DNA from: a virus | Strand: one strand, 5' to 3' | Virus record (IMG/VR): IMGVR_UViG_3300046683_000206 | Coordinates: 1 to 61,638 of that record | DNA: 61,638 nucleotides | Part shown: positions 684-23,764 of the stretch, piece by piece | Numbering within the stretch: position 1 is the first letter of the stretch | Layout of the letters: each line of letters starts with the position of its first letter | Made by a program: the position numbers and the translations under genes | Notes under the pieces: model-generated | Databases searched by the model: none | Told to the model about the DNA's origin: nothing | The model's input: the letters and a program-made list of their open reading frames with translations, nothing else

Positions 684-838
684 AGTCGACCGAGCAGCGC
701 CAGGACCAGGACGATGACCAGGATCAACACCAGCACGCCCGCCGGGGTGTAGCCGTAGGAGTGCAGGCCCACCGCCGGCAGCGCGCCGATCAGCAGCAGG
801 ATCAGGATCACGATCAGGATGATCGACAGGACGTTCAT
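680..838 (-). CDS. DUF3309-like small membrane protein
   Basis: 52 residues, starting MNVLSIILIVILILLLIGAL. Two very hydrophobic stretches (about 1-20 and 34-50) flank a short loop with LHSYGYTPAG, and the protein ends LLGRL. This matches my recollection of the DUF3309 family, small bacterial membrane proteins of unknown role. The stop overlaps the terS start (ATGA). It lies with two other small membrane proteins just before the packaging genes, so a holin-like or membrane-stress role is possible but unproven. Confidence 0.7.
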   Translation of the reverse strand: MNVLSIILIVILILLLIGALPAVGLHSYGYTPAGVLVLILVIVLVLALLGRL

Positions 839-839
839 G

Positions 840-1001
840 TCAGTGGCTGAGAACCTGCAGCACCTCGCGCACGTTCAGCAGGAAGGCCAGCAGCCCCGCG
901 CCGAACATGATCTCACCCACGCGCACCAGTTTCGGATTGCCCGCCAAGGCGTACATCAGCAGGCCGATAATCGCTACCAACAGGCTCAGTGCAATGATCA
1001 T
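840..1001 (-). CDS. Small two-helix membrane protein, holin candidate
   Basis: 53 residues, starting MIIALSLLVAIIGLLMYALA. A first transmembrane helix (2-20) is followed by a short polar turn GNPKLVRVGE and a second helix (31-45, MFGAGLLAFLLN). Both ends would lie on the same side of the inner membrane, a class II holin-like topology. The ATG overlaps the stop of the upstream gene (ATGA). Similar short proteins are common in phages and are usually left as hypothetical. A holin role is inferred from size, topology and neighbourhood only. Confidence 0.6.
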   Translation of the reverse strand: MIIALSLLVAIIGLLMYALAGNPKLVRVGEIMFGAGLLAFLLNVREVLQVLSH

Positions 1002-1261
1002 TGCCCTTCTCCTCGTTTGCCGCCGTGAAGTATCTCAAACTCGCGCAGCCGCTGCTGTTCCTCGAGCGCCACCACGCGCTCGCGCAAGTGGCCGGCCTCT
1101 TCCGACCGCACCTTGATCACCTCGCGCGCGTCGCTGATCTGGCCGTCGAGCCGCTCAACGTGCTCGCGCAGCGGCTGAATCGCCGTCGCCCACAACGCCA
1201 GCAGCGCCACCGTGATCGTGGCGATCGTGGTCGCAATGGCGTCGAACCGCGTCGTCGCCAT
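998..1261 (-). CDS. Membrane-anchored coiled-coil protein, i-spanin or holin accessory candidate
   Basis: 87 residues with one N-terminal transmembrane helix (about 8-30, ATTIATITVALLALWATAIQ). A long polar heptad-like region follows (LREHVERLDGQISDAREVIK and onward to about 75). A single helix followed by a coiled coil is the build of Rz-type inner-membrane spanins, but also of unrelated phage membrane proteins. I saw no embedded Rz1-like lipoprotein gene. GAGAGG precedes the ATG as ribosome binding site. Confidence 0.6.
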   Translation of the reverse strand: MATTRFDAIATTIATITVALLALWATAIQPLREHVERLDGQISDAREVIKVRSEEAGHLRERVVALEEQQRLREFEILHGGKRGEGQ

Positions 1262-2233: not shown

Positions 2234-2745
2234 GGGTAAAACGGCACCTTCACCGTCGCCAATGCATACGGCGTCTTGTTGTAGTTCTCCGGCGTCTGCG
2301 CCGCAATGTGCGCCTTGAAATCCTTCAAAGTCGTCCCCGCCAGCACCGCCAAACTGTTCGGCGCAATCCGCTTGCCCGACTGATCGTAGTTGCCGTTCGG
2401 CAGCTTCTCATCCAACCGAAATGTCTGCCAGACCATCGCCCCAAACGGATGATTCGCCGGATGACATACCTGCAGCACCTTGGCCTGCGTGGCGTCATCC
2501 ATCTGACGAAAAGCCTTGATCGTGAAATCAGCCACATACAACTGCACCGCGTCCGCCGGATTGCCCAACTCCTTGATCTTCGCCACCACAAAATCAAACA
2601 ACACCGCCCCGTCCGCGTCCGGCCCCGTCAAATACCCCACAGGCAACCCAACCGATGGGTCCACCAACCCCGCAGGCTGCGCAAACGTGCTCCCCTCAAA
2701 ATCCGGCGCAGCCTGCTCCGGCAACCCCAATCGACGCTCTCCCAT
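2230..2745 (-). CDS. Hypothetical protein, first gene of the late block
   Basis: 171 residues, starting MGERRLGLPEQAAPDFEGS. This start is chosen because GAGGAGGAA sits at the right distance; an in-frame ATG at 2778 lacks a ribosome binding site. The protein is soluble and mixed alpha/beta, and I recognise no domain. It overlaps the exported protein by GTGA, so the two are probably made together. The 408-bp control region lies directly upstream. Confidence 0.72.
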   Translation of the reverse strand: MGERRLGLPEQAAPDFEGSTFAQPAGLVDPSVGLPVGYLTGPDADGAVLFDFVVAKIKELGNPADAVQLYVADFTIKAFRQMDDATQAKVLQVCHPANHPFGAMVWQTFRLDEKLPNGNYDQSGKRIAPNSLAVLAGTTLKDFKAHIAAQTPENYNKTPYALATVKVPFYP

Positions 2746-2838
2746 AACACTTCCTCCTCGCCTCTCAGCCCAAGCCACCGATCATGCTCCCCACTTTTTC
2801 AAAAATCTACCAGAAATGTCGGGGGGGTCGCGCATCAT

Positions 2839-2845
2839 AGTATAC
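2839..2845 (-). promoter_or_regulatory. Candidate -10 box TATACT within a GTATAC motif
   Basis: On the minus strand the context reads ATTTGTATACTATG, about 95 bp before the late start codon at 2745. No TTGACA-like hexamer lies 16-18 bp upstream. The same GTATAC core recurs at 2990, 3452 and 5129. Confidence 0.3.
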
Positions 2846-2962
2846 AAATCCCATTTGTAACCGTCGAAGGCACTCTATCCGAATCCGATTCGGCCAGGCC
2901 CAGGCCGACGCCGGTGGCTCGAGGGGCAAGCGGCGGGGTGGCTGGGGCCAGCCGGGTCGGAT

Positions 2963-2981
2963 GAGAATGATTATTATTCTT
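2963..2981. promoter_or_regulatory. Fur-box-like sequence
   Basis: GAGAATGATTATTATTCTT matches the classical 19-bp Fur consensus GATAATGATAATCATTATC at 14 of 19 positions. It lies just downstream (minus strand) of the TATACT box at 2989-2994, the usual place for a repressor. It stands out in a GC-rich genome. A chance AT-rich match is possible. Confidence 0.35.
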
Positions 2982-2988
2982 GCGAAAA

Positions 2989-2995
2989 AGTATAC
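2989..2995 (-). promoter_or_regulatory. Candidate -10 box TATACT next to the Fur-like site
   Basis: The minus strand reads CATTCGTATACTTTTTCGC. The -35 region is weak. The distance to the start codon at 2745 would give a leader of about 240 nt. Confidence 0.25.
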
Positions 2996-3153
2996 GAATG
3001 AACTCAATGATATCAGGCACTTGCGTGCCATTTTACATAATGGTCATATGCGTGCTAGATGAACGAAAGGGACAAACCCCAGGTTTATCAGCAACTTGTG
3101 CCTAGCCCACCCGCCAAATGCGCGTGCGAGCGCTCACGCGGCGCTGGCGGCGC

Positions 3154-3423
3154 TCAGGTGCTCTCGACCGCCAGCGCGGCGGCGGCGTCGCGTGCCGCCT
3201 TCCACGCCCTGTACGCGCTTGTGCGGCGGTCGCGCAGGCCGCTCGCCAGCCGTGGCACGCCGTCGGTCGACGCGGCGAAGGCGGCTACCCGCACGCGCTC
3301 GTCGTGGGCTTCGATATCGGCCCGAATCAGGCGCTCAATGCGCGCCTCCAATCGGTCGATCTTCAGGGCGGTGACGTAGCGGATTCTGGGGTCGCGCTGG
3401 CGGCGCGGACGGTTCACCTTCAT
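3154..3423 (-). CDS. Small basic protein of unknown function
   Basis: 89 residues, starting MKVNRPRRQRDPRIRYVTAL. Of two in-frame ATGs six bases apart, the inner one is chosen because GGAG lies 7 nt before it. The protein is very rich in Arg and Ala, probably all helical, with a basic N terminus that could bind nucleic acid. It is the only gene inside the control region and has its own candidate promoter (TATAAT at 3519-3524), so a regulator is plausible. I recognise no family. Confidence 0.6.
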   Translation of the reverse strand: MKVNRPRRQRDPRIRYVTALKIDRLEARIERLIRADIEAHDERVRVAAFAASTDGVPRLASGLRDRRTSAYRAWKAARDAAAALAVEST

Positions 3424-3518
3424 GGGCATTCTCCGGCGTGGTTTATATCAGGTATACAATGCAGCATCCTTGCCTGTTATAAATCTGCAAGATGTGCAAG
3501 AAGACGCATTGTGCGCGT

Positions 3519-3545
3519 ATTATACAACGGGATTCTGTAGCACAA
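3519..3545 (-). promoter_or_regulatory. Candidate promoter for the 89-residue gene
   Basis: A perfect TATAAT on the minus strand (3524-3519) is preceded 15 bp upstream by TTGTGC. Transcription would begin near 3511 and run into the gene starting at 3423, leaving a leader of about 88 nt that contains a GTATAC motif. Confidence 0.4.
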
Positions 3546-3572
3546 TCGAAAAATCAATAAGTTGAATACCAA

Positions 3573-3599
3573 GGCGTCTCAGGCGTCTCAGGCGTCTTC
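3573..3599 (+). repeat. Three tandem 9-bp repeats, GGCGTCTCA
   Basis: Two perfect copies (3573-3581 and 3582-3590) and a third with a changed end (GGCGTCTTC, 3591-3599). The core is repeated in the hairpin at 3637-3657 and inverted at about 3752-3766 (GACGCCTGACGTC). This could be an iteron or operator cluster. Confidence 0.8.
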
Positions 3600-3636
3600 A
3601 TTTTTCCCATAGAGGCCGTAGAACACGCGCAGGCAC

Positions 3637-3657
3637 CGTCTCACGCCCCGTGAGACG
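3637..3657. promoter_or_regulatory. Hairpin, 8-bp stem and 5-nt loop
   Basis: CGTCTCAC-GCCCC-GTGAGACG is a perfect inverted repeat. There is no adjoining T-run on the plus strand, so it is not a standard terminator. Its arms match the GGCGTCTCA repeats upstream, so a protein that binds those repeats could bind here, or the RNA could fold alternatively. Confidence 0.6.
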
Positions 3658-3818
3658 CTAAATACAGACTATTTCTTTTAATATATAACTGAGGTAGTAG
3701 GGATAGTGTTGGTAGATCAAGGGGTTGGGAGGGCGCTTTTTGGGACACAGAAGGGACGCCTGACGTCTTTCTAAGTCATTGATGCGCCTGGAGATTGTGG
3801 GAAAGTTGAGAATAGTGC

Positions 3819-3846
3819 TTGACGGCCTGCATCTGCCCGTTATAAA
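3819..3846 (+). promoter_or_regulatory. Sigma70-type promoter of the early operon
   Basis: TTGACG, a 16-bp spacer, then TATAAA. Transcription would start near 3853, about 40 bp before the first start codon at 3894. This is the best promoter in the window and would be read by unmodified host RNA polymerase, as expected for early genes. Confidence 0.75.
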
Positions 3847-3893
3847 TTAGCGTCACTGGCACCCCGCCAGCCACACAAAACCGGAGCAATCCC

Positions 3894-4019
3894 ATGCAAG
3901 GCGTCCTAACCCTCGACACGATTTTGACCACCCTCGACACCCTCGACCGCGACGGCTGCGACCTGTCTGCAGCACTGCAGAACAGCACCCAGAATTCCAC
4001 CGTATCGGAGGCCGCTTAA
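3894..4019 (+). CDS. Early leader microprotein
   Basis: 41 residues, starting MQGVLTLDTILTTLDTLDRD. GGAG lies 8 nt before the ATG, and it is the first frame after the early promoter. The N terminus repeats a TLDT unit (TLDTILTTLDTLD), suggesting an amphipathic helix. No family is recognised. It could be a leader peptide that couples translation to the next gene, which starts 3 nt after the stop. Confidence 0.55.
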   Translation: MQGVLTLDTILTTLDTLDRDGCDLSAALQNSTQNSTVSEAA

Positions 4020-4022
4020 GCC

Positions 4023-4328
4023 ATGAAATTCAAGCTCAACATCGACTGCAATTCCGACGCCTTCCACGACGATCACATGGCCGAGATTGCGCGCATCCTG
4101 CGCGCCGCTGCAGCCCGCGTCGAAGACCTTCGCTGCACCAGCGGATCGCTGGCCGACGCCAACGGCAACAGCGTCTGCACCTTCCTGCTCGGCTCTGACC
4201 TGTACTTCAAGGAACTCGACCTGCGCGCTGCCGAACAGGCGGCGCATTGCGCGCTCTGCGGCGAACGCTTGGACGATGGCAAGAACTGCCGCTCGCTCGA
4301 CCGTGTTTCGCACGACTTCCTGTCCTGA
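4023..4328 (+). CDS. Early hypothetical protein with Cys/His motif
   Basis: 101 residues, starting MKFKLNIDCNSDAFHDDHMA. It looks alpha/beta. Near the end AHCALCGERLDDGKNC gives a CxxC plus one Cys, a half zinc site that might be completed in a dimer. The N terminus resembles small phage proteins with a conserved CNSDAF-like segment, but I cannot name a family. Its ribosome binding site (CGGAGG) lies inside the end of the leader gene. Confidence 0.7.
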   Translation: MKFKLNIDCNSDAFHDDHMAEIARILRAAAARVEDLRCTSGSLADANGNSVCTFLLGSDLYFKELDLRAAEQAAHCALCGERLDDGKNCRSLDRVSHDFLS

Positions 4329-4350
4329 CACTGCCCCGGAGAATCCGACA

Positions 4351-4632
4351 ATGGCAAACCGTCTCACAAAAGCACAACGCGCCTTCCTCATCAGCGAGGC
4401 CGACTTCGACCGCGACTACCAGCCGCGCAAGCATCGCAGCGGCGACTTCTACACGTTCCAACAGGTCCGCCGCTACCCCATCAATCGCGTGTGGAGCATC
4501 GTCGATGACGGCGGCGAAACCGATCACCTGTACGCCTCTCCCGGCTACCACGTTGTCAACCATCTGGGCTATGTCGTGACGCGCAAGCCGTGGGACGAGA
4601 ACACGCTCGACGCGCTGTACCACGAAGCCTGA
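4351..4632 (+). CDS. Early hypothetical protein
   Basis: 93 residues, starting MANRLTKAQRAFLISEADFD. The start is supported by CCCGGAGAATCC just upstream and by the 22-bp gap after the previous stop. The protein is rich in Tyr, Asp and Arg with a probable beta-sheet core (RVWSIVDDGG, HLGYVVTRKP). No domain recognised. Confidence 0.7.
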   Translation: MANRLTKAQRAFLISEADFDRDYQPRKHRSGDFYTFQQVRRYPINRVWSIVDDGGETDHLYASPGYHVVNHLGYVVTRKPWDENTLDALYHEA

Positions 4633-4710
4633 CAGCGATGCCTCTTGCGGGTCGCATCCATCGCGACCGCAGTGGGCAACACTGACACCAACCCAAGAGA
4701 GGAAACCGCA

Positions 4711-5124
4711 ATGACTGACACACTGAAGCTTTCCGGCAAGACCCGCACCATTGCCTTGCTGCCGCGTGTGGGCGCGACGCTCGTCGTGGGCGGCAATGAG
4801 TACCGCGTGCGCCGCGTCGAAGAGGTGAACGCCTACGGTGCCGTTGGCCACCGCATCTACTTCGACCTGAACGGTCGCCGCGTGTACGACCCCATGTCGT
4901 GGACGTCGTGGCGGCAGCTGGCGTGCGGCACTGAAGCGGTGAACGTCGTGATCGACGCCGACGTTGTCGAGCGCAAGCATCGCGGCGGTGCGCCCACGTA
5001 TGAGGTCACGCTGCAGGTTGGCGACATTCAGTACCGCTTCTCCTGCAAGACGCTCGACGGTGCGTTCGCGCTCAAGGAACTCGCCGCGAGCGCGCTGCTC
5101 GACATCTCGTCCGCTGTCCTTTGA
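4711..5124 (+). CDS. Early hypothetical protein
   Basis: 137 residues, starting MTDTLKLSGKTRTIALLPRV. AGAGAGG precedes the ATG. A longer frame exists upstream but lacks a ribosome binding site. The predicted fold is beta-rich in the first half (TLVVGGNEYRVRRVEEV) with a C-terminal helix (LKELAASALLDISSAVL). A 78-bp gap with no visible signal separates it from the previous gene. Confidence 0.68.
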   Translation: MTDTLKLSGKTRTIALLPRVGATLVVGGNEYRVRRVEEVNAYGAVGHRIYFDLNGRRVYDPMSWTSWRQLACGTEAVNVVIDADVVERKHRGGAPTYEVTLQVGDIQYRFSCKTLDGAFALKELAASALLDISSAVL

Positions 5125-5150
5125 ACTTGTATACAACTGGAGTACTACCC
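5125..5150 (+). promoter_or_regulatory. Palindrome TTGTATACAA and ribosome binding site
   Basis: A perfect 10-bp palindrome (5127-5136) carries the GTATAC core seen in the control region. It is followed by CTGGAGTACTACCC directly before the GTG start at 5151. The CTACCC-start context recurs in other early genes. Confidence 0.4.
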
Positions 5151-5669
5151 GTGCCTACCGACATCTGTCCCGCCGTCCATATTTTCGATCACATTACCCT
5201 CGCGCAATTCCGCGCCACGCGCACCGAATCGGCTGACGTTGCGCGCTTCGCTGGCCTCGACCCCGACGATGACACCATCTTCCCCGGCTACACCTATCTG
5301 GGGTTCGGCTACATCGTCGACGAGCGGCGCGTGACGCCCAAGCCGCAGACGCCGAACCGCTACCGCTACTGGACCCTGACCGCCGACGGCGTCGAGTGCG
5401 GCAGCGATGATCTGGATGCGCTTGAGGCGCTTGTGTACGCCGACACCGTGCAAGGCGGGCACCTCGTCGCAGGCTATGGCTACATCAGCCTGCAGCCCAT
5501 CCCGCAGCCGCTGGAAGAGGTGCTAGATCAGGACAGCGCGATCAACCGTGGCATCCGCGCCGACATGAAGGTCGCGACGTGCGCGCCTGCGCTGCTGACT
5601 GCGCTGCGCCACTGCCGTGCGGATGGCTCCGCGCACGCCGCCGCCGTGTTGGCCGCCTTGGGCTTCTGA
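5151..5669 (+). CDS. Early hypothetical protein
   Basis: 172 residues from GTG (VPTDICPAVHIFDHITLAQF), chosen because GGAG lies 8 nt upstream. An earlier TTG in frame has no ribosome binding site. Acidic and aromatic residues dominate the middle (LDPDDDTIFPGYTYLGFGYI), and an Ala-rich helix ends the protein. I cannot assign a function. Confidence 0.66.
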   Translation: MPTDICPAVHIFDHITLAQFRATRTESADVARFAGLDPDDDTIFPGYTYLGFGYIVDERRVTPKPQTPNRYRYWTLTADGVECGSDDLDALEALVYADTVQGGHLVAGYGYISLQPIPQPLEEVLDQDSAINRGIRADMKVATCAPALLTALRHCRADGSAHAAAVLAALGF

Positions 5670-7888: not shown

Positions 7889-8200
7889 ATGACCCAACAA
7901 TCCCCGGCCTGCGGCTATCCTGACTGCGCCTGCGGGCGCGAGGCGGCTGCGGCCCAGGCCCGCGCCCAGGCCCGCGCCCATCACGCTGCTACCCATGTCG
8001 CGCCCGTGCTGTCGCACCTCGCGTTCACGGTCGCTCGCATCGCACGCGAGTCGCGAGTGATCGCGCTCGACCTTCACCGCCGTGGCCTCGCGACCAAGCT
8101 CGACCGTGCCTACCATCGCGGCCTGCGCGTCGGCGCACGCGAGATGGAACGCGAGGTCGTGCGCTACGCCACCAAACTCATCAAGGAAATCACGCCATGA
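7889..8200 (+). CDS. Early helical protein with Ala/Gln/Arg repeat
   Basis: 103 residues, starting MTQQSPACGYPDCACGREAA. A Cys triplet (CGYPDCAC) is followed by AAAQARAQARAHH, encoded by a 12-bp tandem repeat at 7952-7979, then a long amphipathic helix rich in Arg. CAGGAG and the CTACCC context precede the ATG. No family recognised. Confidence 0.62.
   Translation: MTQQSPACGYPDCACGREAAAAQARAQARAHHAATHVAPVLSHLAFTVARIARESRVIALDLHRRGLATKLDRAYHRGLRVGAREMEREVVRYATKLIKEITP
7952..7979 (+). repeat. Tandem 12-bp repeat GCCCAGGCCCGC
   Basis: Two perfect copies and a four-base partial third, in frame, coding for the QARAQARA run. Copy number may vary by slippage without a frameshift. Confidence 0.8.
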
Positions 8201-8400
8201 CTTTCACCCTGACGCCGTCCCGCAAGGTCTACATCATCAGCACGTCCGCGTGCCACTTCGTGAAGTACCTCGACCGCGAGCCGCGCCAGCGGTTATACGC
8301 GGCGCAGTTCGACGCACGCCACAAGACCCGCGAGCAGGTCGAGCAGTGGGTGCGCCACCAAGACAACCTGATTTTGACCGGAGGAGGAGGCTACCCATGA
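8197..8400 (+). CDS. Early small hypothetical protein
   Basis: 67 residues, starting MTFTLTPSRKVYIISTSACH. It overlaps both neighbours by ATGA. A short beta strand is followed by a basic helix (EPRQRLYAAQFDARHKTREQ). No domain recognised. Confidence 0.6.
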   Translation: MTFTLTPSRKVYIISTSACHFVKYLDREPRQRLYAAQFDARHKTREQVEQWVRHQDNLILTGGGGYP

Positions 8401-8660
8401 CTGAGTTCAACTGCTTGAACGGCCAGATCGACGACGAGGGTTGGTTCTTCACGTTCGGCTATGGGCATCGCCTGAAGAACGGCGAGAGTTTGCAGAACCG
8501 CTACTACCTGTCGCACGAACCGGATTTCGGTAAGGCGCGGCTGGAGATGTGGAAATTGCGCGGCGCAGTCTGGGCGATGCAGTACCCGATCTGCGACCTT
8601 GCAGGACAGGTGGCCGACTTTGGCCTGACCGAAATCACCGCAGAGGAGTTGAGCGAATGA
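8397..8660 (+). CDS. Early small hypothetical protein
   Basis: 87 residues, starting MTEFNCLNGQIDDEGWFFTF. GGAGGAGG and the CTACCC context precede the ATG. It is rich in aromatic residues and appears globular. The ATGA overlap with the next gene suggests coupled translation. Confidence 0.62.
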   Translation: MTEFNCLNGQIDDEGWFFTFGYGHRLKNGESLQNRYYLSHEPDFGKARLEMWKLRGAVWAMQYPICDLAGQVADFGLTEITAEELSE

Positions 8661-9001: not shown

Positions 9002-9223
9002 ATGTGCCACGCAATCCTGAGAGTCAGTTTCAAGAACGACAAGACCATCCAGAACATGCAGTGCGACACGCCCGGTGTCATGCGGACGAAGATCAGCGAA
9101 CTGCAGGCGAACGATCAGGTGAAGCGCATCGGCGTGTTCGTGTGCCAGCAGCACATCGAGCGCGTCGAGAAGTGGACCGCGAAACCCTACGAGGTTCCCG
9201 GCGATGTGGTGCAGCAAGCATGA
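9002..9223 (+). CDS. Early small hypothetical protein
   Basis: 73 residues, starting MCHAILRVSFKNDKTIQNMQ. AGGAGG and the CTACCC context precede the ATG. A beta-alpha-beta pattern is likely (strand 3-10, helix near VMRTKISELQ, strand IGVFVCQQ). Function unknown. Confidence 0.6.
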   Translation: MCHAILRVSFKNDKTIQNMQCDTPGVMRTKISELQANDQVKRIGVFVCQQHIERVEKWTAKPYEVPGDVVQQA

Positions 9224-9486
9224 AGAAGACCACGAAGAAACCCGCTACCCCGGCCAGGCCCAAGCGCAAGCGTCGCAGCGTGCGCGACCCGGATCACTCC
9301 ATGTCGTGGCGTCAGCGGCAGGAAGCGAAGGGCGCGATGTTCGTGCAGTTCTGGACGCGCCCAGAGGTGGCGTCGAGGCTCAACGCGCTCATTGCGGCGC
9401 GTCGAGCTATCGAACCGCTGCGTCAGCGCAAAGCGATCAAGCCGAAAGACATCATCGAAGACCTGATTCTCTCAGCACATCTGTGA
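9220..9486 (+). CDS. Early basic protein, possible DNA binder
   Basis: 88 residues, starting MKKTTKKPATPARPKRKRRS. The basic Pro/Lys/Arg tail (1-25) precedes a helical domain (FVQFWTRPEVASRLNALIAA) that could be a small DNA-binding fold. It ends the operon. Its last 35 bases overlap the 3' end of the convergent methyltransferase gene. Confidence 0.6.
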   Translation: MKKTTKKPATPARPKRKRRSVRDPDHSMSWRQRQEAKGAMFVQFWTRPEVASRLNALIAARRAIEPLRQRKAIKPKDIIEDLILSAHL

Positions 9487-10999
9487 CCATCTGAATTCGT
9501 TCGCCTACCCACACGAACATCGGTACGGCGAACGAGTTCCCCAGCGCCTTGTAGCGGGGTCCGTCCTTTGCGACGTGACCCCGCTTTCCCATCGGGATGG
9601 CTGTCCAGTCATCGGGGAATCCCTGCAACCTCTCGCACTCACGCGGCGTCAGCCGACGCACCGCCGTCAGCGAACTCGCCACATCGGTCTGGCTCGCCTC
9701 AAGTTGGCTACCCTGACCGCTCGACGGGTACACGTTGAACGCGGTGAGGGTCTCGACCGTGTCGACATCGGTCCCCGGCGGGCGGTCGCCGCCGGTTTGG
9801 TTGCCGCCAGCGCGCAGCGTGGGTGAGATGTCGGAGACGAACACCGCGACCTGACCACCGGCGTCGGCACCGCTGTACAGCGGCGGCGTGACTTCGCTGG
9901 GCGCACCGTCCTTGTCGCGGGTGTAGTGGCTGGCCTTGAACGCGACCGGGATCAGAATCGCGCCTCGGCCGGTGCCATCTTCCGACGCTGCCCGACCGTG
10001 AACGTCGAGCGTGCGCGCAACGACCGGGATCATCGTCTGGCCCTCGTCGAAGGTTGTGTTGACGCCCTTGTGCATGCGCCTGGTGAGGCAGTTCGCGACC
10101 GCCGGGATCAGCGTCTCGGTTTCCGGATCGGTGCGCTTGCCGCCGTGGTGACCGCCTGCGTTGAGGCATTGCGACACGACCGGGACATCGGTCAGAGCAG
10201 GGACAGTTGTGGGAATGGCGTGTCCTGCGGCGGCTTCGTCTGGTCCGCATCGCCAGCCGAGACCGTCTGAGGCTCCGTTCGTGAGCGCGCCGACGGTTTC
10301 GGAGACTGCTCCACTGTCACCACTCCCGCTACGCTCTGCAGCGCCGCCAGCAAGGCTGCGGGCAACTCCTTCCCGCGGCGAGCGGCGCGGCGCAGGATCC
10401 CCGCGCAAGCTCGCGAGCTCAAGAAGTACCGCTGCGGCAGGTCGGTAGTCTCCAGAATATCCGACAAGGATGATGCGACGCCGCCGCTGGGGAACTCCGC
10501 AATACTGAGCGTCAAGCACTCGGTACGCGACTCCGTAGGCGTCAGGAATTCCGGCGACGAATCCGGCGGTCTGCCAGCCTCCGGGTGGGACTTCGACCAC
10601 TGTTCCCGTGAGCAAGCCCAGAAACGCTGCAAAGTCTCGTCCTCCTGAACTCGAGAGTAGGCCGGGGACGTTCTCCCAGACCAGCCAGCGGGGGCGATAT
10701 CGTGCAGCAATCGCAGCAAATGTGAGGGTGAGGTCACCACGCGGATCATCAAGTCCTTTTCGGAGTCCAGCGACCGAGAATGACTGGCAGGGTGTTCCTC
10801 CAACGAGAACATCGAGGTTTGCATCGGGCCACTCCTTGAAATTGGTCATGTCGCCCAGGTTGGGAACATGTGGAAAACGATACTTCAATACTTCGCACGG
10901 GAACGGGTCGATCTCCGACGCGAACACGCACTCCCAGCCGAGAGCGTCCCACGCCGCAGACGCGCCTTCGATGCCGCTTGCTACTGATCCGAATTTCAT
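9452..10999 (-). CDS. DNA (cytosine-5-)-methyltransferase
   Basis: 515 residues. It would transfer a methyl group from S-adenosylmethionine to C5 of cytosine in a specific DNA site. Visible motifs in order: motif I FGSVASGIEGAS (3-14), motif IV GGTPCQSFSVAG with catalytic Cys71, motif VI WENV (108-111), motif VIII QRRRR (171-175), a long target-recognition region (about 190-440), then RECERLQGFPDDW and motif X YKALGNSF. All key residues are present, so it should be active. No restriction enzyme lies beside it, so protection against host restriction or epigenetic control is more likely than a restriction-modification system. It is the last gene of its operon. Confidence 0.93.
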   Translation of the reverse strand: MKFGSVASGIEGASAAWDALGWECVFASEIDPFPCEVLKYRFPHVPNLGDMTNFKEWPDANLDVLVGGTPCQSFSVAGLRKGLDDPRGDLTLTFAAIAARYRPRWLVWENVPGLLSSSGGRDFAAFLGLLTGTVVEVPPGGWQTAGFVAGIPDAYGVAYRVLDAQYCGVPQRRRRIILVGYSGDYRPAAAVLLELASLRGDPAPRRSPREGVARSLAGGAAERSGSGDSGAVSETVGALTNGASDGLGWRCGPDEAAAGHAIPTTVPALTDVPVVSQCLNAGGHHGGKRTDPETETLIPAVANCLTRRMHKGVNTTFDEGQTMIPVVARTLDVHGRAASEDGTGRGAILIPVAFKASHYTRDKDGAPSEVTPPLYSGADAGGQVAVFVSDISPTLRAGGNQTGGDRPPGTDVDTVETLTAFNVYPSSGQGSQLEASQTDVASSLTAVRRLTPRECERLQGFPDDWTAIPMGKRGHVAKDGPRYKALGNSFAVPMFVWVGERIQMVTDVLRESGLR

Positions 11000-11553
11000 C
11001 GCGCACTCCCAAAAAGGTCGCAGACAGTTTCCACATCAGTGCGAGGGTTGCGATGGTGCGCCCACTGCTCCTGCTCCACGAACGTCTTCGACCAAAGCGC
11101 CTTGGCGATCTCGACGTATTCGGTGTTGCGTTCCTCGCCGTCGCTGCGCTTGCGGTGCCTGCCTGACGGATGCGCTTTGCGCTCCATCACCCAGCCGCTG
11201 GCCTTCAAGCTTGCGCCGTTCTCGCTCGTGTAAATGTACGTCTGGATTTTCGCGTAGCCCATCGCCTTGCCGATGCGCGCCGCCGCTGAGTACAGGAACG
11301 AGCAGGCGTTGTAAGTGCCGTCGCTGCACATGCGGGTGACCTCAAGAATCCTGGTCGGGTCGAGTCCGCTTGTCGGTCGACCGATGATGGCGCACGCGAC
11401 GAGCGCTCCGCTCGCCGTCAGCGCGCCGATGCAGAAGCGATGGCCCTGCGCGCGTTTGTGGTGCCGGTGATGCTTCTCGACGAATTCATTCGCGTCAGTC
11501 AACTCCAGAGGGACGAGACGCAGCTTTACCTTTTCGTGCAGAACGAACGTCAT
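10996..11553 (-). CDS. XF1762-like phage protein, GNAT-like fold
   Basis: 185 residues, starting MTFVLHEKVKLRLVPLELTD. The segment ANEFVEKHHRHHKRAQGHRF and the later GTYNACSFLYSAAARIGKAM match my recollection of the XF1762 family found in many phages. That family resembles N-acetyltransferases, with a beta strand giving IQTYIYTSENGASLKASGW as in the GNAT core. The substrate is unknown. It overlaps the methyltransferase start by ATGA and an upstream micro-gene by ATGA. The inner ATG was chosen over an in-frame start at 11625 because of that coupling. Confidence 0.75.
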   Translation of the reverse strand: MTFVLHEKVKLRLVPLELTDANEFVEKHHRHHKRAQGHRFCIGALTASGALVACAIIGRPTSGLDPTRILEVTRMCSDGTYNACSFLYSAAARIGKAMGYAKIQTYIYTSENGASLKASGWVMERKAHPSGRHRKRSDGEERNTEYVEIAKALWSKTFVEQEQWAHHRNPRTDVETVCDLFGSAR

Positions 11554-11702
11554 CCCAGCACCCTTGCACAAAACAGCCACGGGTTTCCTGCTTCCCGGCA
11601 CTCGCGCCAGGCCAGCCAGTCCCACGCGACGGTGCCAGCGATCAAGAGCAACACGATGATCGTGATCGCGATCACCCTGCCAAGTTCCGCATCAATCTTC
11701 AT
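11550..11702 (-). CDS. Micro membrane protein
   Basis: 50 residues, starting MKIDAELGRVIAITIIVLLL. One transmembrane helix (about 9-28) is followed by DWLAWRECREAGNPWLFCAR with two cysteines on the periplasmic or cytoplasmic side. The start lies 11 nt inside the end of the primase gene and the stop overlaps the next start by ATGA. The function is unknown. Confidence 0.6.
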   Translation of the reverse strand: MKIDAELGRVIAITIIVLLLIAGTVAWDWLAWRECREAGNPWLFCARVLG

Positions 11703-14028
11703 GTTTTCTCCACGCCTTTCGTGATCTCGGGCTGTCTTCAGGAAGCGACATCAGTTCGTTTTGTGTGTACGTGCAACTCATGTACGTGTAGCCCAACTGC
11801 CTCATGATGTTGCCCACGCGATTCGCCTCGCGGCGCTCAGTCTTTCCGATCTCGAGCTTGAGCGCGCCTGTCAGGATTTCGCCGGTCGTGACTCCGCTCT
11901 TCAGTCGCGCTTCCGGCTGGTCAAGCCAGTACTCAATCACGGTGACCCACTCGTCGCGCACGACGAACTCTGTCGCCGCTTCCGCCGCGAGCAGACGCGT
12001 CGCCTTGTCCTCGATCCACCACTTCTCGCCCGCCTTGTAGCGGTGCGTCGCCTCGGCCCACAGTTGATCGCGATCGGAGCGCAGCGTCTCGAGGTCGATC
12101 TCGTCGCAGACTTTCACGGGCCAGAAGCGCACGTTGCCGGTCGGATCGGACAGCACCTCGCTCGGGTTCGACGTGCCGCAGAAAACGCTGCACCGCGGGA
12201 TGGTCTGCACACGGTGCGCGTACGCTGGCCGGTACGTGTCTTCGTAGGTCGATATGAACGACTTGATCGATTCGACATCGTCGGCGCGCTTGAGCTTCGC
12301 CAGTTCGGCCATCTCAATGATCCAGACCTTGCTGCACTGTTCGATGGCCTTCGTGTTGTCACCGCCGATGCTGCCGTTCTGCACGGCGAACCACGGCGAG
12401 CCAAGCACCCTGAAGACTTCCGACTTCCCGGCGTCCTGCGCGCCGAACAGGATCAGCACGGTCTTGACCTGACACCCCGGCTGCATCGCACGGGCGACCG
12501 CCGAGATCATCCACGCCTTGCCGACGAAGTTGGTGAATTCATTGTTCGGTGCGCCGCAGTACGTCGTGAGCCACGTATCCAGCCGGGGCGTGCCATCCCA
12601 CTTCAGCGAGTGCAGGTAGTCGCGGACGGGATGAAAGCTGTTGCGCTTGGCGACGAGGTTCACCGCGTCCTTGAGCATGCCGCGGAAGTACAGCCCGGTG
12701 CGGTCGTACCAGCACTCCAGCATCGTGTCGTGGTGATCGGCCCACTCCTCGGGCTGCTCGCCCCACGGCGTCGGGCGCGTGGTCGTGACGCGTTGCCTGA
12801 GCTCGTCCCACGCCAGCACCCCGGCCCACTCGTCGGCGTAGAGCAGCGGCATGACCGCGTTCTCGGTGCAGCGCATGGCGGTCTGCTCGCCCGCGACGAT
12901 CTTTCCCTTGACCAAGTTCGTGCGCCACTTGCAGTACTTCCAATGCTTCGCGACCGCAGACAAATCCCACTGCTTCCTCGGCCCCGGTCGTTCGGGCGCT
13001 TCGGCTTCCGGCTCGTCTTCCCGCGGCATGAGGATGCCCGTGCGGGCCGGTTCCGCCTCGTAGACGTGCCGGCGCATGCGTGGCTCGCCGCCGACGGTTT
13101 CGATCAGCCAGTTGTCGAGTTGTTCGGGCGACCAGCCATCCTCGAGGAGCGCGTTCGCCGCGTCCCACTTCTCGTTGCAGTCCGAGACGTTCAAGATCCA
13201 CACTTCCGCCGCGATGCCACGCAGCCGCTCTACAAGCTCGCCCAGCGCGTGCGCGCCCGCCTCGTCGGCGTCGGGCCAGATGTACACGGTGCGGTCCTGC
13301 AGCGGGTCGAGGTCGGCCTTGGGGACGGCGTGCGAGCCGCCTGGCCACGTCGCGGCGACCCAGCGCCCGCCGCCCAGGATTCCAGCGGCGTCCGCGCTCT
13401 TCTCGCCCTCGACCAAGCACACGGGCAGCTTGGGTGACGCCGTCAGCAGGTGCAGGTTGTAGAGCGGGCGCGGCGCTTGCCAGTGGCCGTTGCGCCAGCC
13501 ATCGTCGGCGTAGGTGAACGCCCGGTACGACTTCCAGAGCGTCCCTTCCTTGTCCCACCATTCATATCTGCCGACGTAGAAGAGGATCTCGCGCCTTTTG
13601 CCGTGGTAGGTCCAGACCTTTTCGAGTTTCCACGGGTGCGGTGGATCCTCGCTCGGCTGGATTCGCATGTCGGGTTGCGCCGAGAACTCGTCGGGCGGCG
13701 CGTAGCATTTGCGCTTGACCTCGGCAGGCATCAGCTTGGGGAACGGGATGACCTTCCGCTCCGTCACGCCGCCGGTGATGATCTCCACGGCCCGCTGGAA
13801 CGAACAGCCCTCCTTGCGTTGCACGAACGCGATCGCGTCGCCGCCGACGCCGCATGAGTGGCAGAAAAAGAAGTCCTTGTGGGGAATGACCGCGAGCGAT
13901 GGCCGACGGTCATTGTGGAAGGGGCAGAGTCCTTTGTACTCGCGCCCGTTGCGCTTCAGTTCGACGTAGAGGCCGACAACTTCAGCGATGGAAAACGTGG
14001 CCTTGAGGCCAGCAACATCGACAGCCAT
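11692..14028 (-). CDS. Primase-helicase (CHC2 zinc finger, Toprim, VapE-type ATPase)
   Basis: 778 residues. It would prime and unwind DNA at the phage fork. The N-terminal CHC2-type zinc finger uses Cys35, His38, Cys56 and Cys59 (LCPFHND and FFCHSCGVGGDAI). A Toprim-like part follows at about 205-270 (CLVEGEKSADAAG and VYIWPDADEAG). The second half (about 420-740) is a virulence-associated-E type P-loop ATPase: Walker A FGAQDAGKSE near 525-534, Walker B-like VWIIEMAEL near 566, and CGTSNPSEVL with VRFWPVKV as sensor region. With no phage DNA polymerase visible, it presumably loads host polymerase. It starts 12 bp after the Tat-signal gene. Confidence 0.9.
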   Translation of the reverse strand: MAVDVAGLKATFSIAEVVGLYVELKRNGREYKGLCPFHNDRRPSLAVIPHKDFFFCHSCGVGGDAIAFVQRKEGCSFQRAVEIITGGVTERKVIPFPKLMPAEVKRKCYAPPDEFSAQPDMRIQPSEDPPHPWKLEKVWTYHGKRREILFYVGRYEWWDKEGTLWKSYRAFTYADDGWRNGHWQAPRPLYNLHLLTASPKLPVCLVEGEKSADAAGILGGGRWVAATWPGGSHAVPKADLDPLQDRTVYIWPDADEAGAHALGELVERLRGIAAEVWILNVSDCNEKWDAANALLEDGWSPEQLDNWLIETVGGEPRMRRHVYEAEPARTGILMPREDEPEAEAPERPGPRKQWDLSAVAKHWKYCKWRTNLVKGKIVAGEQTAMRCTENAVMPLLYADEWAGVLAWDELRQRVTTTRPTPWGEQPEEWADHHDTMLECWYDRTGLYFRGMLKDAVNLVAKRNSFHPVRDYLHSLKWDGTPRLDTWLTTYCGAPNNEFTNFVGKAWMISAVARAMQPGCQVKTVLILFGAQDAGKSEVFRVLGSPWFAVQNGSIGGDNTKAIEQCSKVWIIEMAELAKLKRADDVESIKSFISTYEDTYRPAYAHRVQTIPRCSVFCGTSNPSEVLSDPTGNVRFWPVKVCDEIDLETLRSDRDQLWAEATHRYKAGEKWWIEDKATRLLAAEAATEFVVRDEWVTVIEYWLDQPEARLKSGVTTGEILTGALKLEIGKTERREANRVGNIMRQLGYTYMSCTYTQNELMSLPEDSPRSRKAWRKHED

Positions 14029-17046: not shown

Positions 17047-17529
17047 TTACGCTACGCGACGACGCTTTGCCTTCTCGGTTTTTGCGAGATTAACCACCGC
17101 CGTTCCGACATCCCACGACGGGATCACACCGGACTTGATTCGGTAAATCGTTGGTTGTGCCACACCGACTGATTCAGCGATTTGAGCCTGAGTCCAGCCG
17201 CGCGCGAGAAGTGCTTCTACTGCAAACTGTGGGGTCATTGGCCTGCTCGATTCTGCTGCAAAGTCGTAGGGTTCTTTTTCTTTTTTCGGTGGGCGAGGAA
17301 TGAAACGCACGACATTGTATTTTGGGCATTCCTTCCGCACGGCCTCACGTTCTGCCGTGATCGCTTGATCTCTCGTTTCAAAGCGTTCGACTGTGATGTT
17401 CTGCACCTCGTTGAACCAAGGCGCTTTCCGTGCGTGCGTCTTGAGTCTTCCCTGCAATCCGATGGTCATGCCGACATACAGCAGCGCACCGGACTTGTCG
17501 AAATGGCGATAGAGGGAGGCTGCGCTCAT
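17047..17529 (-). CDS. GIY-YIG nuclease domain fused to a helix-turn-helix
   Basis: 160 residues, starting MSAASLYRHFDKSGALLYVG. The N-terminal part (about 4-85) is a divergent GIY-YIG domain: SLYRHF and LLYVG replace the signature strands, GRLKTH follows, and Glu60 in AEREAV is the probable metal-binding residue. After a Lys/Pro linker a Cro-type helix-turn-helix (about 108-140, GWTQAQIAESVGVAQPTIYR) could give DNA specificity. This start has no clear ribosome binding site, and a TTG at 17565 is an alternative. It may be a homing-type enzyme, a regulator that lost activity, or both. It heads the minus-strand operon. Confidence 0.78.
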   Translation of the reverse strand: MSAASLYRHFDKSGALLYVGMTIGLQGRLKTHARKAPWFNEVQNITVERFETRDQAITAEREAVRKECPKYNVVRFIPRPPKKEKEPYDFAAESSRPMTPQFAVEALLARGWTQAQIAESVGVAQPTIYRIKSGVIPSWDVGTAVVNLAKTEKAKRRRVA

Positions 17530-17571
17530 GCGGCTGAGAATACGCCGTCGCGGATTATCTTTCAACGGATA

Positions 17572-18918: not shown

Positions 18919-19196
18919 GCGAACCCAACCTGATGAAAGACGTCGTGCTGTCACCCGAGGGCGTCGAGGAAAAAGTCGTCGAGGTGCGCACGTACCAGAT
19001 CTGCCTCACCGGCGGCGGAAAGTTTCGCGTGTACTACGGCGAGAAGGATTGCCGACACACCGTCGGCATCTTCGACGACGTCAAGCAGGCGCGCAACCGC
19101 ATGGGCATGATCATGAACATGAACGGCGCGATGATCGTGCGCCCCGACGAGACGATCACGATGATCCTGAAGAACCTGCTGGGGGACGACGAATGA
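18915..19196 (+). CDS. Small hypothetical protein
   Basis: 93 residues, starting MSEPNLMKDVVLSPEGVEEK. A beta-rich segment (TYQICLTGGGKFRVYYG) precedes a Met-rich helix (ARNRMGMIMNMNGAMI). It is coupled to the ATPase gene by ATGA and may be its partner. Confidence 0.6.
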   Translation: MSEPNLMKDVVLSPEGVEEKVVEVRTYQICLTGGGKFRVYYGEKDCRHTVGIFDDVKQARNRMGMIMNMNGAMIVRPDETITMILKNLLGDDE

Positions 19197-23242: not shown

Positions 23243-23601
23243 GCACTATAACGGGTGACCCAGAGTTTGAAGCCTGGTGGAAACGCTACTGGGGCGCGCT
23301 GGGCGACTACCATGAAGTCGTGCGGAAGGAGCTTGCCCTCGCCGCATGGAAAGAGGCAATGCGTGTCAGCAAACTCTCGCCACCACCCGGCTGGACTGAC
23401 CCCGCCCCGAAGGACACCATGACCGCGCACGACCGGCGGATCGAAGACACGCTCGCCACATTGCGCGCCGAACGCGACCAGTACCGCAACGCCCTCGGTG
23501 ACCTGCTGACGGCAATCGAAAATTGGAAGAAGATGTCGCCGCTGTACGGCGCAGGGGGCAGCGGTCATGGCGGTGTGGCAACTCAAACTCAGCAAGCGTG
23601 A
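23239..23601 (+). CDS. Hypothetical protein
   Basis: 120 residues from GTG (GTGA overlap). A Trp-rich helix ([20 protein letters not shown]) is followed by a Pro linker and a coiled coil ([20 protein letters not shown]). It resembles small phage proteins in which such units are recombined freely. Its last 35 bases overlap the LuxR-type gene. Confidence 0.6.
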
Positions 23602-23764
23602 AATGGAAGTTGCCGCGTGCGTCAAGATCGGACTGAGCAACAAGGAAATCGCCAGGCGGTTGGGCATTGCGCCGACGACGGTGAAGACGCACCTCGAGCG
23701 AATTTTCGAGAAGCTGAAAGTATCGAATCGAGTTCAGGTCGCCACCGCGGAGATATCGAAGTGA
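23567..23764 (+). CDS. Free-standing LuxR-type (GerE) helix-turn-helix protein
   Basis: 65 residues, starting [40 protein letters not shown] followed by [20 protein letters not shown] is a canonical LuxR C-terminal DNA-binding domain with all four helices. There is no receiver or ligand domain, so it would bind DNA without a sensor, like GerE. It is near the end of its operon and could regulate late genes or the host. The start lies inside the preceding gene in another frame. Confidence 0.88.

Follow-up and report, generated by a model that had tools for sequence, protein, structure and literature searches.

A candidate replication origin with 9-bp iteron-like repeats in an uncultured tailed phage, at a place where sibling phages carry DnaA boxes

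Iterons located beside AT-rich DNA are described for the origins of phage lambda and of plasmids (PMC5043065, PMC7466680). In the cited accounts of satellite elements, SaPI Rep helicases recognise iteron origins via their C-terminal domain, and Cch2, a relative of SaPI Rep, binds a putative origin whose direct repeats number only three and whose nearby inverted repeats were dispensable for binding (PMC7581432). Rep-type helicases are thus described to bind short iterons (PMC7581432, PMC6092414), one of these accounts placing an iteron set on either side of an AT-rich region (PMC6092414). Another layout features DnaA boxes, known from oriC and from iteron plasmids that carry DnaA sites. An origin of this kind was predicted by Ori-Finder for phage PseuGes_254 (PMC11512268).

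The locus reported here, a cluster of short repeats in a tailed phage (phage A), resembles several of these systems as far as the cited texts describe them. It shares with the lambda origin the arrangement, within a phage genome, of short repeated, here presumed, initiator sites that directly adjoin an AT-rich tract (PMC5043065, PMC7466680), and with the origins of PICI/SaPI Rep and SCCmec Cch2 the few short iterons, the nearby inverted repeats and the presence of a gene for a Rep-type helicase (PMC6092414, PMC7581432). Nevertheless, lambda features inverted-repeat iterons of about 19 bp inside the O gene, whereas the repeats of phage A are direct, 9 bp long and located, like its hairpin, in a non-coding gap, and no O-like gene was found among the phage A proteins scanned. 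SaPI origins, as described, lie directly downstream of rep (PMC7581432), while the gap of phage A is about 8 kb away from the rep-like gene, which ends at 11692 and is followed by a Mom-like ORF (10996-11625), the cluster being located at 3573. Two iteron sets flank the AT-rich region in PICI/SaPI origins; in phage A, three units and a hairpin lie on the left and a single inverted 9-mer on the right. Due to the distance of 8 kb, the region is not filed under the PICI/SaPI Rep origins and may at most work alike. With DnaA-box origins the likeness is found in a sibling phage, which shares three exact boxes flanking its AT tract, whereas phage A is without them. Literature on phage origins, iterons, DnaA boxes and VapE was searched as well, and no title on this phage group was found.

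The window, i.e., the whole stretch of DNA that was analysed (61,638 nucleotides), is the complete virus record of the uncultured phage A. It closes circularly, with identical first and last 127 bases, resulting in a circle of 61,511 bp. Thirty of its proteins were scanned with PHROGs and ten with Pfam; the 30 include a terminase, a portal-like protein, a capsid protein, a collagen-like tail fibre and a protein of 2507 aa, and a DNA methyltransferase, a Mom-like protein, a primase-helicase, a second helicase and an exonuclease VIII-like protein are encoded as well. By position only, the small terminase is presumed to be encoded at 1-683, in an ORF that adjoins the large terminase once the circle is closed and that has a match in sibling phage B. 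Named phages are only distantly related, the terminase reaching at best 46.7% identity among the matches listed (best 20 of 408) and the portal 27-32% (best 20 of 34). All near-identical contigs of phage A represent one population, no further population of this type having been found, and none of the 51 stretches that matched terminase patterns in genome_contigs was confirmed as a relative.

The cluster sits in a non-coding gap (3430-3893) with leftward genes on one side and rightward genes on the other. The last listed leftward ORF encodes a basic protein of 91 aa (3154-3429, minus strand, start at 3429); on the plus strand, an ORF of 41 aa starts at 3894 and the first ORF of at least 60 aa that was taken as a gene at 4023. 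Between them, the proposed iterons form a plus-strand tandem GGCGTCTCA-GGCGTCTCA-GGCGTCT at 3573-3597, seen by direct reading, by TRF and in the shuffle test. The first-pass annotation had described three tandem 9-bp repeats. The tandem exists and is perfect, but GGCGTCTCA occurs in full at 3573 and 3582 only, and the third unit at 3591 reads GGCGTCT followed by TCA, with one T inserted, so that the array consists of two full copies and a 7-bp partial one. TRF reports 3572-3597 (26 bp, period 9, 2.9 copies, 100% matches, score 52) among its 21 rows for the window, of which this one does not have the highest score. The remaining elements of that annotation were found as claimed: the hairpin CGTCTCACG-CCC-CGTGAGACG at 3637-3657, which carries the CGTCTCA core of the tandem and adjoins the AT tract; a further inverted copy on the far side of this tract, GACGCCTGA at 3755-3763, which on the minus strand reads TCAGGCGTC, as the tandem does in a shifted register at 3579 and 3588; and the AT tract itself (3658-3689), from which genes diverge at 3429 and 3894. 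Ahead of the rightward genes, direct reading gives a sigma-70-like promoter TTGACG-16-TATAAA (3819-3846, plus strand); a promoter scan uses the same -35 element at 3819 and places the -10 element differently. The -10-like element TGCCYGTTATAAAT occurs twice on the plus strand (3471-3484 and 3834-3847), flanking the cluster as similar rightward promoter-like elements.

Chance was assessed with 2000 dinucleotide shuffles of 3430-3894. A tandem of at least 26 bp was obtained in none of them, an inverted repeat with arms of at least 9 and a spacer of at most 10 in 28, a 7-mer occurring four times in 23, and tandem and inverted repeat jointly in none. The tandem is therefore not a chance product of the composition of the gap. 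Folded as DNA, the hairpin reaches -9.8 kcal/mol (z -5.1), with one of 200 shuffles equally good. Across the window, perfect arrays with periods of 5-30, counted from two copies and six further bases upwards, were found at three places, namely 1851 (period 6, 19 bp), 3572 and 26899; the last has the same period and length as the array at 3572 (9 and 26 bp) and lies within the collagen-like tail-fibre gene. TRF gives further perfect arrays with fewer copies, e.g., 7952-7980 (period 12, 2.4 copies). Short repetition beyond chance, as expected of an iteron origin, is thus found in the tandem, while in a window-wide scan for any 8-mer occurring three times within 200 bp the cluster does not stand out, being only one among many places (best 12 inspected).

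The AT tract at 3658-3689 would serve as the DNA-unwinding element. According to nearest-neighbour stability, it is the least stable stretch of the phage A genome at 20, 30, 40 and 60 bp, while an island at 2961 ties with it at 80 bp and is less stable at 100 bp. This second AT island (2957-3070, 35% GC) represents the sole run of 100-bp windows below 38% GC in the window; it features promoter-like sites on the minus strand, and a similar island occurs in sibling phage B. Directly after the AT tract follows a G-rich, C-poor block of 44 nt (3690-3733, plus strand). Its first bases, TGAGGTAGTAGG at 3690-3701, equal the first 12 bases of the animal let-7 microRNA, which is regarded as a coincidence due to the richness of the block in G.

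The sibling was found by alignment scans with portal, terminase and primase and by searching with a string from the end of a contig. Phage B shares the gene order of phage A and comprises about 61.5 kb in two contigs of one metagenome, 3300046780_000840 (43,877 bp) and 3300046780_001060 (17,808 bp), which overlap at both ends, by 151 bp and by about 17 bp, the shorter overlap being bridged by contig L131. Identity between A and B amounts to 79% for the terminase, 65% for the portal and about 60% for the primase-helicase. Two types can be distinguished. B1 includes near-identical contigs that span the gap wholly or partly (L022, L098, L131); B2 is represented by L112 (3300049442_000288), which is 92-100% identical in aligned pieces of more than 300 bp and is rearranged or different in the gap and to its right. 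The matching gap is anchored on the left by the terminase and window 836-1004 (78% DNA identity) and on the right by the ORFs 8082-8660 and 9004-9486 and the primase. The small genes between these anchors are dissimilar in A and B, and the gap was matched by position. Likewise, its left neighbour in B, an ORF of 83 aa, is a positional counterpart of the 91-aa ORF, with 35% identity in a MAFFT alignment and no tblastn match at 0.01. On the right side, an extended -10 promoter TGATATAAT precedes the rightward ORFs of B at the place corresponding to the promoter of phage A.

Several other contigs were considered for comparison and set aside. The closest relative (L011, terminase 90%) differs in gene order and its contig stops short of the region, as do the contigs L019, L020, L021 and L023-L027; L116, from a record of 61,950 bp, has a single DnaA box, but no synteny was seen. 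A search for the exact 18-mer tandem in viral_contigs returned six stretches, three of which (L001, L002, L005) belong to the phage A population, being 99.99-100% identical where aligned, whereas the other three (L003, L004, L006) are without similarity to the window at E 1e-5. The six stretches therefore give no evidence of conservation. Compared with phages at 1e-5, window 3400-5200 gave no match covering the gap; at E up to 1, the gap yielded one match of 25 nt to a plasmid, located within an annotated gene, and one 32-nt match to two records of one phage.

In the gap of B1, three exact DnaA boxes TGTGGATAA occur within about 190 bp around the AT tract, one just left of it and two right of the G-rich block. 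No exact box occurs elsewhere in the B sequence examined, for which 0.12 are expected. B2 retains the left box only, which adjoins its AT tract. The window of phage A contains no exact box (no match to TTATNCACA), and its one-mismatch matches number eight, versus 12.2 expected, with none in the gap; boxes as in a DnaA-box origin are thus present in the gaps of B1 and B2 only. In a multiple alignment, the box of B1 and B2 comes to lie near the 3' arm of the phage A hairpin, a correspondence that is positional and not one of homologous bases, as the gap aligns poorly. Conversely, GGCGTCTCA was not found in the gap of B1 or B2. The AT tract of B1 is the weakest stretch in both B contigs at 20, 30, 40, 60 and 100 bp and the second weakest at 80 bp. 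Within L112 and L136, the loci examined for B2, the tract takes third to fifth place and is not the minimum, which weakens the argument from stability minima; judged in this way, the AT-rich tract of an iteron origin is found in A and B1, not in B2.

Within the gap, a sequence match to the siblings above background was obtained for the G-rich block. This block shares 30 of 44 positions between A and B2, 27 of 44 between A and B1 and 24 of 44 among all three; other 44-mers of the phage A gap, taken every 11 bp, have best matches of 18-24 outside starts 3683-3705, and the ungapped match of the block was equalled in none of 5000 mononucleotide shuffles with offsets allowed. All in all, what is kept is the block and the order of initiator-type sites, AT tract, G-rich block, further sites (except in B2) and rightward promoter, and the sequence of the repeats is not conserved. 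Conservation of the repeats in related phages, which the first-pass annotation had proposed as a check, hence holds for the layout and fails for GGCGTCTCA itself.

Further observations concern other features of the two phages. The genes for the DNA methyltransferase and the Mom-like protein (window 9452-11625) are without tblastn match (E 0.01) in the B contigs, while the primase-helicase beside them does match B; judging from this pattern, the two genes appear to be a modification module that was gained or lost. Mom-type modification was also considered as the cause of DnaA-box loss and dropped, because the Mom recognition context presumably occurs within the GGCGTCTCA units, too. The protein encoded at 17047-17565 fuses a GIY-YIG nuclease domain to an XRE-type HTH; in B, only HTH residues 105-170 find a match and no nuclease domain was seen in the 760 bp that were inspected. 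At 23567-23764, the window encodes a stand-alone LuxR/GerE-type HTH of 65 aa (E 2.5e-21). Finally, GTATAC is an over-represented palindrome, frequently in the form (A/T)TGTATACAA, with nine occurrences in the window versus 1.37 expected (2840, 2990, 3452, 5129 and five more) and 16 in 17.8 kb of sibling B (L127). Six of these 16 are followed within 25 nt by an RBS-like CTGGAG motif on the rightward strand, an arrangement that phage A features at 5129. GTATAC may therefore serve as a promoter or operator motif throughout the phage.

Taken together, the region from 3573 to about 3850 is read as a replication origin of phage A, with GGCGTCTCA/CGTCTCA as iterons where B has DnaA boxes, to which a probability of roughly 0.6 is assigned. 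The cluster is probably an origin because DnaA boxes are located at the matching position of the sibling, where they surround an easily melted stretch like that of phage A. In the proposed course of events, an initiator would bind the CGTCTCA-type sites in the tandem, the hairpin arms and the inverted copy, and would thereby strain and melt the adjacent AT tract, at which the replicative helicase would be loaded. The conserved G-rich block would be part of the origin and could possibly fix which strand gets captured. As the sites of B are DnaA boxes, host DnaA probably takes part there; as those of phage A are 9-bp iterons, its initiator is more likely phage-coded.

A candidate for this initiator is available, although no initiator protein had appeared evident in the first-pass annotation. 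The ORF at 11692-14028 (minus strand, 778 aa) encodes a fusion of a DnaG-type CHC2 zinc ribbon (PF01807), as in primases, with a VapE-like helicase (PF05272). Its residues 379-642 match the solved chain 7pds_A ('similar to D. nodosus vapE') at E 3.6e-41, a chain that presumably is SaPI Rep. An AlphaFold model of the protein was too poor for use (mean pLDDT 33.4). Between A and B, identity falls to 54% at residues 701-750 and 43% at 751-778, compared with up to 82% in the helicase core; this divergence of the C-terminus says little, since the linker at 301-400 is equally variable (38-44%). The primase-VapE helicase is a plausible initiator and the best candidate in phage A.

Some results do not favour an origin. 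A change of GC skew at the region, suggested beforehand as a check, did not appear: cumulative skew has no extremum there in A or B, its minimum lying about 10 kb to the right and its maximum to the left, at a distance of several kb or more, and the extrema perhaps follow gene orientation. AT-rich promoter DNA likewise yields stability minima, and the DnaA boxes of B could instead regulate transcription. Together with the weak homology of the left neighbour, the result of the 8-mer scan slightly weakens the reading as an origin.

Transcriptional control is the subject of the alternative that the CGTCTCA sites form an operator array, bound by a phage regulator of divergent promoters between 3430 and 3894, for example the XRE-type or the LuxR/GerE-type HTH protein. 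Divergent genes, promoter-like sites, a palindromic site and encoded HTH proteins agree with this, AT-rich gaps with repeats are typical of operators, and a small operator array would be just as unexceptional in the k-mer scan. The GerE-type ORF is without tblastn match in B at 0.01, as expected for a protein that binds sites specific to A; the XRE-type HTH, however, is kept in B (62% over 66 aa, similar HTH) and the sites are not. Moreover, the palindrome was found in five stretches of the 257-Gb GTDB contig set versus about four expected at equal base frequencies, which is close to chance and does not point to a widespread operator, and to our knowledge dimeric repressors seldom bind 9-bp repeats in head-to-tail order. 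An operator would leave both the DnaA boxes of B and the conserved block unexplained. We consider it unlikely. The first-pass annotation had left the choice between origin and operator open; the sibling DnaA boxes, the stability minimum of the AT tract in A and B1 and the conserved block speak for the origin, while little was found that speaks positively for an operator.

The repeats could also act as RNA. A rightward transcript starting from the extended -10 element at 3471-3484 would run through them, and attenuation or antisense control would result from pairing of the repeats with the 3' hairpin arm (TGAGACGC) or from a weak terminator at 3581-3597. Indeed, a terminator-like hit with a T run was obtained at 3581-3597, GCGTCTCA is complementary to the 3' hairpin arm over 8 nt, and a second copy of the -10-like TGCCYGTTATAAAT is present at 3834. 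The presumed transcript folds unexceptionally, however (z -1.55; 14 of 200 shuffles as good), the one Rfam hit in 2700-4100 is at chance level (19.9 bits versus a gathering score of 39) and outside the cluster (2937-2953), and the pairing elements were not seen in the gap of B, which makes an RNA element quite improbable. Still less can be said for a role in packaging (pac/cos) or partition (centromere), in which the terminase or the 91-aa protein would bind the site; this is highly improbable. The presumed small terminase ORF does lie beside the large terminase, and repeats with an adjacent small basic protein resemble centromeres. Nevertheless, neither the PHROGs scan of 30 proteins nor the Pfam scan of ten gave a ParA-like match, AAA_24 at 19193 being the only related hit, the DnaA boxes of B would be unexpected for such a site, and the sites are unshared even though the large terminases are as similar as stated above.

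Returning to the reading as an origin, the comparison of the siblings allows a further and tentative proposal, which we regard as possible, if on the doubtful side: A and B may share an origin core, consisting of the AT tract and the 44-nt G-rich block, on which the initiator sites have been exchanged, DnaA boxes in one case and 9-bp iterons in the other. If true, this would represent a natural switch between host-dependent and phage-driven firing of an origin, and the G-rich block would be an undescribed origin element that is independent of the initiator. The origins of uncultured phages are seldom located, and the sibling genomes point here to a candidate of about 300 bp. A similar core with different initiator sites would offer a natural experiment on the change from host DnaA to a phage initiator. 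Accordingly, this phage group would allow primase-VapE fusion helicases to be tested as initiators in large tailed phages, in a role like that of the Rep helicases in phage satellites.
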